Assembly: GCA_003019535.1 (NCBI GenBank)
Contig: NEXG01000004.1
Coordinates: 1-64,000, forward strand
Length of the DNA: 64,000 nucleotides
Direction of reading: 5' to 3'
Source of the DNA: Candidatus Marsarchaeota G2 archaeon ECH_B_1
GTDB taxonomy: Archaea; Thermoproteota; Thermoprotei_A; Marsarchaeales; Marsarchaeaceae
The translations under genes were made by a program, and so were the position numbers. Under the pieces are notes generated by a model. The model searched no databases, was not told where the DNA came from, and was given only the letters and a program-made list of their open reading frames with translations. The stretch's first letter is position 1; every line of letters begins with the position of its first letter. Positions 18,240 through 22,119 of this stretch are shown here, one piece after another.

Positions 18240-18764
18240 CTAGTCACCTCCACTTCTCCATGAGGGGTCTGAGCGAAGCTTCTGCGCCGCGTACTCGATG
18301 GCTTCAACTATCTTTACATACCCAGTGCACCTGCAGAGGTTACCCGAGATACCCCTCCTAATCTCCTCCTCTGTGGGGTTAGGGCTCTTCTGTAGCAGGT
18401 CATAGGCAGCCATCATCATGCCAGGCGTGCAGTACCCACACTGGAGGCCATGCTTCTCCCAGAATCCTTCCTGAATGGGGTGAAGTCTACCCTTCCTTGC
18501 GAGCCCCTCCACTGTTAGCAGGCTTCCCCCGTTCGCCTGCACTGCGAAAACCGTGCACGATTTAACCGCCCTACCATTAAGCACAACCGTGCAGGCACCG
18601 CAGTTGGACGTGTCACAGCCAACATGGGTGCCGGTTAGACCGAGCACTTCTCTAATAAAGTGTACTAGGAGCATCCTCGGCTCAGCCTCCCCGACCCTCC
18701 TCTCACCGTTCACGGTGAGCTCTAAACGCACCTTAGCGTCGGCTGGGTAGATAAGCGCGGTCAC
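18240..18764 (-). CDS. coxS: CO dehydrogenase small (2Fe-2S) subunit
   Basis: Carries two [2Fe-2S] clusters passing electrons from the Mo site to FAD in CoxM. The plant-type ferredoxin cluster appears as [15 protein letters not shown] and the second as [12 protein letters not shown] with NLCRCTGY. At 174 residues it has the usual length. It overlaps coxM by one base (18764) and precedes coxL by 2 nt. Confidence 0.96.
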
Positions 18765-19642
18765 TATAGGCCACCCCTAGCCCTCTTGTAGGCCAACTTC
18801 AGAGCCCTATGGGTGAGCACCTTGACCATCGCCTTTTTATATTCAGCTGGGCCACGGATGTCTGAAAGTGGGTTACTCGTGTTCATCGCCAGCGTTGAAG
18901 CCTTATCTAGGACTTCGTCAGAGAGGCTTTTTCCGACAAGCCACGACTCGGCTTCACTGGCTTTAATGGGCTTCGTTGAAGCAGATGTGAGACCTATCCC
19001 AACACTCCTACACACCCCATCACCGTCGACCTCCAACTGCGCCGCCACTCCAACTATAGCGTAGTCGCCCACCCGACGTTCAAGTTTGAGGTACGCACCA
19101 CCGCATCCACGCCTATTCTTTGGGATGCGGACCTCGGTGAGCAGTTCGTCGGATGCTAGAAGTGTTGTGAATCTATCCACAAAGAAGTCCTTTGCAGCTA
19201 AAACCCTCTGACCGCTTGGGCCGCTAGCAACCATCTCCGCATTCATGGCTAGGCAAACCGCTGGCAAGTCGTCACCCATATCCGCATGGCAAACGTTACC
19301 GCCGAATGTGCCAAGATTCCTAACAAGTGGGTCAGCTATCTGTAGCGCCGCATCGTGTATAAGTGGGTAATCCTTGGCTACCAGCTCAGAGTCGCAAAGT
19401 CTTGATATCCGAGTAAGAGCGCCTATTTTCAGCGACTCTCCAGAGTCGTCCAAGTAGTCTAAGTTGGGGATGCGATTTATATCTACGAGGCTTTTGGGAG
19501 ACGCGTAGCCTAGCTTCATAAACGGTATGAGGCTTTGGCCGCCGGCTAGAACCTTGGAGTCCTCTAGTGTATGGAGGAGCTCCACAGCCTCCTCCACACT
19601 GTGTGCAACCGTATAGGAAAATCTATCGGGAATCACAAACAA
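18764..19642 (-). CDS. coxM: CO dehydrogenase medium (FAD-binding) subunit
   Basis: FAD subunit of 292 residues. The two FAD loops of the family are visible as [15 protein letters not shown] (about residues 33-47) and [16 protein letters not shown] (about 110-125), followed by the C-terminal CO-dehydrogenase flavoprotein domain. It is the first gene of coxM-S-L-G-xdhC/YHS-mobA. The start is TTG 19642 (MFVIPD); GTG two codons later is an alternative. A possible promoter (TTTAGG around 19670, minus strand) lies close by, and the non-coding element at 19895-20024 points toward this gene. Confidence 0.95.
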
Positions 19643-19894
19643 TAATCTTAATACCTTTACCTAAAGATTGTTGTAATACTTTATCATTATATTTACTATA
19701 TTTATAGAAATAATATTCATATTTATCAAAACCTGAGTAAGTCATACCCACCATTCACCCACACCACTCAACAGAATACCCGAGAACCCCCAACACATCC
19801 AAAGGAAACATCAACCTTTACCCAGAGTGATCGAAGCTTTTCAAAAGGGGAAGGTGTCCGAATTGGAGGATGAGTGGACCCCGTGCTCCTAAAT
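19643..19894. other. Upstream region of the CO dehydrogenase operon
   Basis: AT-rich close to coxM (TTATAGAAATAATATTCATATTTATC around 19698-19730 gives several possible TATA boxes on either strand). Between about 19740 and 19894 I see no gene; a minus-strand frame of 76 codons crosses the region but has low-complexity, non-protein-like content. Confidence 0.35.
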
Positions 19895-20024
19895 GCGGCT
19901 TGGCTCACCAAGCAAGGCGCCAGCGGGAGGACTTTGACTGGTGGTTTGGCCCCGACTGGGTAATTGGTATACACTCTTTCTCCTCCAAGTGGCACCATAC
20001 AGGTGTTGGGTGAGGGTGGTTGTG
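19895..20024 (-). ncRNA. Candidate small RNA or leader element, copy B
   Basis: On the minus strand a TATA box (GTTTATAA, about 20055-20048) is followed about 60 nt later by TTGGAG-GAG-AAAGAGTGT-ATAC-CAA-TTACCCA (19988-19957) and then GCCAAACCACC. The same series of blocks, with the same TATA box in front, occurs on the plus strand at 20849-20965. CACC-TGTAT-GGTG (about 20006-19994) can form a small hairpin at the place where copy A has a different but also pairable sequence, and GCTTGG/CCAAGC (19898-19913) closes the end. Expected start near 20024. It points toward coxM, so it might be a long leader rather than an independent RNA. Family unknown. Confidence 0.4.
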
Positions 20025-20184
20025 GCTGGGGTTGCCCGCTTGGGTTATAAACTTTTCAGGTGGGTATCCAGACCAATCATGGGCTTAGGGTTGAGCTTTA
20101 AATCGAATTAAGGATTACACAATAACAAGCTTGCCTTTGTTGGCTTCTTCACCTGAAACTGGAGAAGCTCGCCTTAAAAGCAAC

Positions 20185-20632
20185 TTATTTACACGTTGTG
20201 TAACCAACCGTGACGTTAAGCGACGCGTTTTGTGACGCAATCTCGTTAACACTGTTTTGATTGGTGCTTAGAATTACACCATTATGGAAGAACGAACTAC
20301 TGAAGAGTGGGGCTTCGCCAGCGTAATTGCTATAGCTTACGCTTTGCGTCTTACCACCATAAGTTACAGTGATTGTTACGTCATCAAGTGGGTTGAGACT
20401 CGTTACAGCCGAACCATTTTTTTGTAAAAGTAGTGGGGTTGCCGCCTTCGATGTACACTACTGTGATGTTATAGCCATCGATTTCAAACGTGGTGTTCTT
20501 TAGCCATTCAGGCTGTGGAAGTATAGTAGAGTGGTAGCGAACACCACAGTTTGAATCCTTATAGAAAAGGATGGCGCTCGCAACAAGGACCGCTATGAAT
20601 AAGCCAACTACAAAGTATCCAATCTTTTGCAT
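20185..20632 (-). CDS. Small membrane-anchored secreted protein, frame broken at a 7-base run
   Basis: The open part (20384-20632, 82 codons) begins MQKIGYFVVGLFIAVLVASAIL, an N-terminal membrane anchor, then a short extracellular segment. At T7 20417-20423 (A7 on the coding strand) the frame changes: skipping one A lets translation continue as NGSAVTSLNPLDDVTITV and on to a stop at 20185, giving a beta-rich, Asn/Ser/Thr-rich ectodomain of about 148 residues in total with several N-x-S/T sites. The continuation has clear protein-like composition, so the gene was or is a single unit. Whether the run is a sequence error, a slippage site or a mutation cannot be told here. Family unknown. Confidence 0.7.
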
Positions 20633-20847
20633 TTGTTTTCACCTACGGTACACACGCGGGTATCGACGAACCGCTAGCTGGTATACTACTAACACCTGAA
20701 CTGAAGTATGATAAATACAGACGGGGGCTAGCATCTCTTTTGTCATAATAATTATGCTCTTAATATATATATTGCTCAAATCCAACTTTTAGTTATTCAC
20801 AAAGAATCTTGCAGAACACGGGTGGTGTCCGGATACCCATGTGGGCG
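20633..20847. other. Promoter region between divergent genes
   Basis: Holds the start region of the secreted-protein gene (minus) and AT-rich promoter-like sequence around 20745-20775 (plus). No coding frame of protein-like composition. Confidence 0.35.
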
Positions 20848-20877
20848 GTTTATAAACCCGGCGAGCTACCTAGCCGC

Positions 20878-21010
20878 CACCCTCTTAGCACCTGGGGGCG
20901 CAATTTGGAGAAAGAGAAAGAGTGTGGTATACTGGTTACCCATCCTGAAAAGCCGAAACCCCACTGTGGGCGGGAGCAAATGCTTATGGGTGGCTTACCC
21001 GGTTTGTTTA
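20878..21010 (+). ncRNA. Candidate small RNA or leader element, copy A
   Basis: TATA box GTTTATAAACCC (20848-20858) followed by blocks shared with copy B: CCACCCTC, CACCTG, then TTGGAG, AAAGAGTGT, ATAC, TTACCCA (20905-20942) and GCC-AAACC (20951-20960). ACCCAT (20938-20943) can pair with ATGGGT (20986-20991). A bulged hairpin GGCG-A-GCT / AGC-CGCC at 20860-20878 overlaps the TATA-to-start interval. It ends just before the DUF1464 gene at 21019 and could therefore be its 5' leader. A stronger AT-rich box (TAATATATATATT, 20761-20773) lies further upstream. No match to a family I know. Confidence 0.4.
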
Positions 21011-21018
21011 GTGGATGA

Positions 21019-22119
21019 GTGCATTTGGTTCTGAGTGTGGGTGTCGACCAGGGAAGCGTGTCCTACGATATTGTCGCTATTGATGACTCTAACGGTGAGC
21101 CCAAGATAGTCCTTGAGAAATCCTTCTCCACCAAGTTCGTTAAGGAGAGGCCCAGTGTTGTTGTGGACACGATATTCTCGCTCGGAGTTAAAATCGACAG
21201 CTTGGTTTTACCATCCGGCTTCGGAACCAGACTTAAACACATCTGGGAGCTCACATCTGAAGACTTCTTTGAGATGAGTCTGAAACCCGGCGGCGGGTCA
21301 TCGCTTGAGAGAGTGATTCAGGCCGTTAAGAACACTGGTGTAAACGCCTACGTAATCCCCGCTGTCAAACACCTCCCCACGGTGCCAGCCCACAGAAAGC
21401 TCAACAGGGTTGACCTTGGCACATCTGACAAGGTGTGTGCCGCCGCGCTGGGAGTGTACACCCAGATGAAGAATAAGAACATCACGCCTGAGGAAACCGA
21501 GTTCGTCCTAGCGGAGCTTGGCTCATCATTCAACGCTTTCATAGGTGTTAAGAATGGAAAGATCGTAGATGGGGTGGGTGGTACCAACAGCTGGCTGGGC
21601 ATCGGCTCTAGAGGGTGCGTTGACGGGGAGGTGGCCGCCCTGATGGGTGAGTTCTCGAAGGATGATGCATACTCGGGGGGCGCGTTATACCTCGCCTCGG
21701 CGGGTAACGGCAACATGAGTGTGGAGGAGCTCGCTGTTTACGCTGAGCAGGGGCACGAGAGAGCTAGGCTCGTCTGCGAGGCATATGTGGAGGGAGTGGT
21801 AAAGGATGTATCCGCCATAATCGCTGCGAACGGTATAAGTTCCACTGAACTATTTTTATCAGGTAGAATACCCCGTATAAGCTACTTCAACGAAGCCCTC
21901 CGCTCTAAGCTCAGGGGCTACACACTCCTAGGCATGGATCGGATGGGGTCCGTGGCGAAGGAGGGAGCCATCGGGGCTGCGATAATAGCAAACGGCCTCG
22001 TGGGTGGTGTGTTCAAACCCATCGTTGACAACCTGAGCCTAGACAAGGCCGCGGGTCACGTGCTAGACTACGTACACCTCCCGCCGAAAGCGCGTAGTAG
22101 GGTGGGATTGCGGGATTAG
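21019..22119 (+). CDS. DUF1464 family protein (ASKHA-fold, kinase-like)
   Basis: A 366-residue protein with an ASKHA (actin/acetate-kinase/Hsp70) pattern: N-terminal VGVDQGSVSYDIVAID (phosphate-1 like), the central ELGSSFNAFIGVKNGKIVDG (phosphate-2 like) and a C-terminal adenosine-type segment (LFLSGRIPRISYF). It matches the archaeal DUF1464 family, sometimes annotated as butyrate-kinase-like; the substrate is unknown. Start is GTG 21019; an ATG at 21015 is out of frame. It follows the candidate RNA element A and precedes mptA by 40 nt on the same strand. Confidence 0.85.
   Translation: MHLVLSVGVDQGSVSYDIVAIDDSNGEPKIVLEKSFSTKFVKERPSVVVDTIFSLGVKIDSLVLPSGFGTRLKHIWELTSEDFFEMSLKPGGGSSLERVIQAVKNTGVNAYVIPAVKHLPTVPAHRKLNRVDLGTSDKVCAAALGVYTQMKNKNITPEETEFVLAELGSSFNAFIGVKNGKIVDGVGGTNSWLGIGSRGCVDGEVAALMGEFSKDDAYSGGALYLASAGNGNMSVEELAVYAEQGHERARLVCEAYVEGVVKDVSAIIAANGISSTELFLSGRIPRISYFNEALRSKLRGYTLLGMDRMGSVAKEGAIGAAIIANGLVGGVFKPIVDNLSLDKAAGHVLDYVHLPPKARSRVGLRD

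Follow-up and report, generated by a model that had tools for sequence, protein, structure and literature searches.

Diverged non-coding repeats in a Marsarchaeota G2 genome are probably decayed MITE-like elements with IS6-type ends

What are the two similar non-coding sequences which, on opposite strands, surround a broken secreted-protein gene in Candidatus Marsarchaeota G2 archaeon ECH_B_1? Both reside in the window, the whole stretch of 64,000 nucleotides analyzed. Copy A precedes a DUF1464 gene and copy B precedes coxM, each on the same strand as the gene, as the first-pass annotation had pointed out. The same annotation left open whether the sequences are a new small-RNA family, a riboswitch-like leader, or a decayed element. 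The last option has stood, given the dispersed copies, the ends shared with insertion sequences (IS) and MITEs, and the absence of the element at the DUF1464 locus of relatives; the other two have not. A and B are probably old, decayed copies of a lineage-restricted, non-autonomous, non-coding MITE-like mobile element.

Sequences were compared within the genome of the window (G000), and with G001 (same genus; public record 'archaeon isolate B26', CADDZQ010000005), G002 (same family), and G004 and G005 (further family members). The features of the locus are:

18764..19642, minus strand: coxM-like CO dehydrogenase medium subunit gene, downstream of B (name after the first-pass annotation)
19850..20079, minus strand: copy B, 230-bp element; 5' end TGATTGGTCTGGATACCC near 20079, inverted 3' end at 19850, model match 19880-20071 (E 2.7e-34)
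19850..19866, plus strand: outer terminal inverted repeat of B, reading GAAGGTGTCCGAATTGG on the plus strand (match 12/15, p<0.002)
20150..20632, minus strand: secreted-protein gene 1, frameshifted remnant with 82 aa still open at 20384-20632; G001 has the intact orthologue of 160 aa
20728..20729: deletion junction; ~850 bp with secreted-protein gene 2 (235 aa in G001) absent from the window
20729..20975: segment hyperdivergent vs. G001, from sequence comparison of the window with G001
20821..20975, plus strand: copy A, element diverged or 3'-truncated; right edge placed by comparing it with G001 and G004/G005
20821-20835, plus strand: left terminal repeat of A, GGTGGTGTCCGGATA (14/15 match to the IS end)
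20976..21018, plus strand: native DUF1464 upstream region GCAAATGCTTATGGG, common to relatives without the element
21019..22119, plus strand: DUF1464 family gene, downstream of A (name after the first-pass annotation), with syntenic orthologues in relatives

Homology of copies A and B

A and B are homologous, being 69% identical in the 119 columns aligned (genome-scale E=3e-7). The pairwise alignment suggested earlier, once run, extends over the whole conserved part, and the motifs already listed (GTTTATAA, CCACCCTC, CACCTG, TTGGAG, AAAGAGTGT, ATAC, TTACCCA and GCC-AAACC) are all found, identically ordered, in A and in B. An upstream block, GGATACCCA, common to A and B, had been missed. The copies had been placed at the right location, but drawn too narrow, B running from about 20079 to 19850 and A from about 20821 to 20975. 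Leave-one-out nhmmer models regained the omitted A at E=2.9e-12, and the omitted B at E=3.7e-22; none of 300 shuffles scored above chance level in the control. Upstream of DUF1464, G004 and G005 carry GGCAAACACTTATGGG, the counterpart of GCAAATGCTTATGGG found at 20976 in the window, and copy A therefore ends where the native upstream region starts.

Size and distribution of the family

The family became clear through the pattern GGATACCCA-N2-TG-N4-GTTTATAA, found with up to 3 mismatches at 7 places in G000 vs. 3 in the reversed control. A DNA search with copy A as sole query returned fragments only. A sequence-only model built from five copies (R1) detects 12 copies in G000 at E<=2e-4, plus one at E=0.008 (about 13 in total), 5 in G001 and 2 in G002. 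When a refined model (R2) was run across 229 genomes of the class, matches were confined to the same three genomes, the remaining 226 having 0 copies. Viral contigs, and phage and plasmid collections, gave no match to the family. The initial observation is upheld, and the family it led to is real and not recorded in the databases searched. The eventuality, considered by the first-pass annotation, that a model would find nothing elsewhere did not occur; further copies were found, though of a nature that suggests a mobile element.

Elements vary in length from 230 to 350 bp (B measures 230 bp, the C5 copy 346 bp), and diverged strongly, the better copies being 64-76% identical to one another. 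Conserved interior blocks (AGGAGAAAGAG, TATACCAATTACCCAT, CAAACCCC) are separated by variable stretches. The interior is non-coding: short ORFs over the element have no Pfam match, and frames are not kept.

The flanks of eight copies were searched in five relatives; conserved sites are few, those of C5 and C17 only being informative. At C5, similarity to G002 breaks off at the left terminal repeat. In G002, G004 and G005 the DUF1464 gene directly follows a 6-pyruvoyl-tetrahydropterin synthase-like gene, without the element.

Near-identical multi-gene segments, made up by glycosyltransferases, a split transposase and one element copy, are found on C38 of G000 and C81 of G002. The two genomes belong to different genera and their other common genes are far more diverged; the segment may be a recent transfer or a mis-binned contig. 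The C8 copy adjoins a long repeat (G000:C8:52278-52379; at least 100 bp), found with 81-95% identity at about 40 other places, often near contig ends; it does not belong to the family, being a repeat of another, unrelated kind.

Terminal repeats and resident insertion sequences

The element would, at least originally, have been bounded by 15-17 bp terminal inverted repeats, GRTGGTGTCCGGATA. This motif is found at 82 places in G000 (up to 2 mismatches) vs. 6 in the reversed control. The 5' repeat reaches significance (p<=0.02) in 8 of the 13 copies of G000, C4c and C25 having none; the inverted 3' repeat does so only in B and C5. Inspection of the flanks of B, C5, C8 and C12 revealed no recognizable target-site duplication; the copies are old.

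The same GRTGGTGTCCGGATA is the terminal repeat of 69-bp palindromic MITEs of G000, which feature 8-bp target duplications (GTCTATTC, GAACCCTT, GTCCAACC). MITEs of this size (GATGGTGTCCGGATAACGCTTCTCCACGCC...) are numerous in the genome, and reside for example on C33, C35 and C37. Insertion sequences of about 730-790 bp with GATGGTGTCCGGATAAG ends are also found; one of them, 731 bp long (G000:C1:237580-238311), with 45 matches in the genome, is flanked by an 8-bp target duplication, CGCAAATA. Pieces of the IS transposases match IS6 in NCBIfam (E 0.001-0.003), and contain E-R-F-F-x-x-L-K-x-R, which fits E--F---K-R, the signature given for archaeal IS6-type transposases (PMC6807381). The resident IS6-type insertion sequences are old and diverse, and several lie at contig ends.

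The elements of the family encode no transposase (DDE transposase test; ORFs and Pfam), and have the ends alone in common with the IS. A transposase-bearing element with the interior of the family was not found. Since the same ends bound the 69-bp MITEs and the IS6-type insertion sequences of the genome, an IS6-type transposase probably moved the element in trans; such cross-mobilization is deduced from the likeness of the ends.

The family is dispersed, shares its ends with other elements, is absent from related loci, and has no conserved fold or frame. Some data do not fit the MITE interpretation easily. Target duplications were not recognized, a clear 3' repeat is seen only in B and C5, and C4c and C25 lack the 5' repeat. 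The conserved interior blocks exceed the needs of a pure MITE. C4c and C25 elements, moreover, diverge between G000 and G001 somewhat less than their flanks (2.3% vs. about 4%, and 5% vs. 8-9%, respectively); at B the element diverges by 2.6%, the flanks by 7.4% and 1.6%. The kind of element is a familiar one, decayed, MITE-like and non-autonomous with IS6-type ends, and the finding is real yet largely ordinary.

Secreted-protein genes between B and A

In G001 two intact small secreted-protein genes, coding for 160 and 235 aa, lie between B and A (L079:5712-7155). The comparison with this intact relative confirms that the gene noticed between A and B in the window is broken: about 850 bp including gene 2 are gone, and gene 1 is frameshifted. 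In G002 both genes are found at another locus (L169:4802-6203), between nucleotidyltransferase and acetyltransferase genes; they are 81% identical, homology is limited to the two genes, and no copy of the element is present.

The segment bordered by B and A being located elsewhere in this relative hints at composite transposition or at recombination between copies, either of which would do. As the gene pair resides in a relative at another locus, which is free of elements, the A-B pair, its ends facing outward around the two genes, may plausibly have been left behind by a composite insertion or by recombination between copies; in the strain of the window one gene would have been lost afterwards, and the other frameshifted.

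A stricter version takes A and B for the arms of a single transposon-like composite that brought in both genes; it is a special case of the MITE-like interpretation and compatible with it. The inverted, outward-facing pair surrounds the cargo in both G000 and G001, the cargo occupies a different locus in G002, and G002, G004 and G005 have neither element nor cargo at DUF1464. Against this, A has no outer terminal repeat, no target duplication surrounds the unit, and coxM need not have been the first neighbor of DUF1464, so that a wider rearrangement may be involved instead. The single unit is a reasonable possibility, though short of being the expected one.

The 20729-20975 segment differs from G001 (L079 7138-7380) by 17% up to the start of A and by 33% in A itself, vs. 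3% downstream, in genomes about 96% identical. In the simplest reading of this comparison, the segment may have been replaced through recombination with a diverged copy, along with the loss of the second gene.

Other readings of the copies

The conserved interior blocks, which have no known parent, are the only ground left for a more novel reading. The blocks could be kept by a working non-coding function, as a short transcript or as an array binding transposase or host factors; the element would then spread an RNA or regulatory module through its mobility, and paired copies could bring host genes to new sites in this archaeal lineage. We regard this as unlikely.

Copies might also be what is left of a gene's 5' end, including promoter, GGAGG Shine-Dalgarno and GTG start, the gene itself having been lost. 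GGAGGAGAAAGAGTG does resemble a ribosome-binding site followed by a start, and the translations of some copies have YTNYP... and ..GQAA.KS.G in common. Yet indels between copies, not in multiples of three, break the frames, Pfam gave no match, and no full-length homologue was found in the genomes searched, which makes this origin quite improbable.

It is very unlikely that the copies represent a new family of small-RNA genes, in which every member would have a TATA promoter of its own and yield a folded RNA. A set of about 13 copies scattered over the genome, in which conserved blocks alternate with variable spacers, would suit this reading, as would the good conservation of B, C4c and C25 between G000 and G001, and hairpins are possible in the variable stretch of individual copies. 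C4c, moreover, folds better than shuffles (z -3.3). But with the exception of C4c and its orthologue single-sequence folds are unremarkable, z-scores vs. shuffles ranging mostly from +0.8 to -1.7, and no consensus fold emerges, a 13-row alignment yielding an alifold energy of 0.0 (z 0.1) and a five-copy alignment -1.8 kcal/mol, in alignments which are sequence-based and could let a poorly aligned variable hairpin escape. A scan of the whole window with Rfam 15 at gathering thresholds gave no match. The proposal that copies are TATA-driven is not borne out. Of the copies, A, B and C25 alone carry TTTATAA, C17 has GTTATAAA instead, and even the A orthologue of the 96%-identical G001 has lost it, reading TCTATGG. 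The ends shared with IS also weigh against small-RNA genes.

Least probable of all is that the genes behind the copies share them as 5' regulatory leaders, either riboswitch-like or acting as a common operator, a reading favored by the position of A and B, and by same-strand genes within about 0.75 kb of C4c, C25 and C5, but countered by the genes downstream of copies being unrelated to one another, by the lack of a conserved fold, by the same native GCAAANNCTTATGGG region occurring ahead of DUF1464 in G004/G005 without the element, and by the search for copies ahead of other genes, in which about half were co-oriented with the following gene and about half faced an opposite gene at its 3' end.

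Comparison with known elements

Taken as MITE-like elements, the repeats are specific to a lineage and no longer suggest a new RNA family, and a false gene call is avoided. They document, for an archaeal lineage that is uncultivated, MITE-like repeats with ends of the IS6 type, and provide a concrete case of an element pair bordering genes that occupy different loci in related genomes.

The 69-bp MITEs of the same genome (GATGGTGTCCGGATAACGCTTCTCCACG...) have the same terminal repeat, but are much shorter, palindromic and better preserved, with clear 8-bp duplications. These duplications belong to the small MITEs and to one resident IS, and are not seen for the A/B family. Archaeal IS6-type insertion sequences (PMC6807381) have the terminal repeat GRTGGTGTCCGGATA(AG) in common with the elements, which lack a transposase and have an unrelated interior. 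Prokaryotic MITEs such as SM1-SM4 of Sulfolobus solfataricus (PMC10969869) differ in that the better of the copies described here are only 64-76% identical, target duplications were not found, and blocks of the interior can still be recognized while an autonomous parent with that interior is missing. Like SM1-SM4, however, the elements are short, non-coding, dispersed, multicopy and mostly intergenic, and terminal repeats resembling those of a resident IS are seen at the 5' end of most copies and, inverted, at the 3' end of B and C5.
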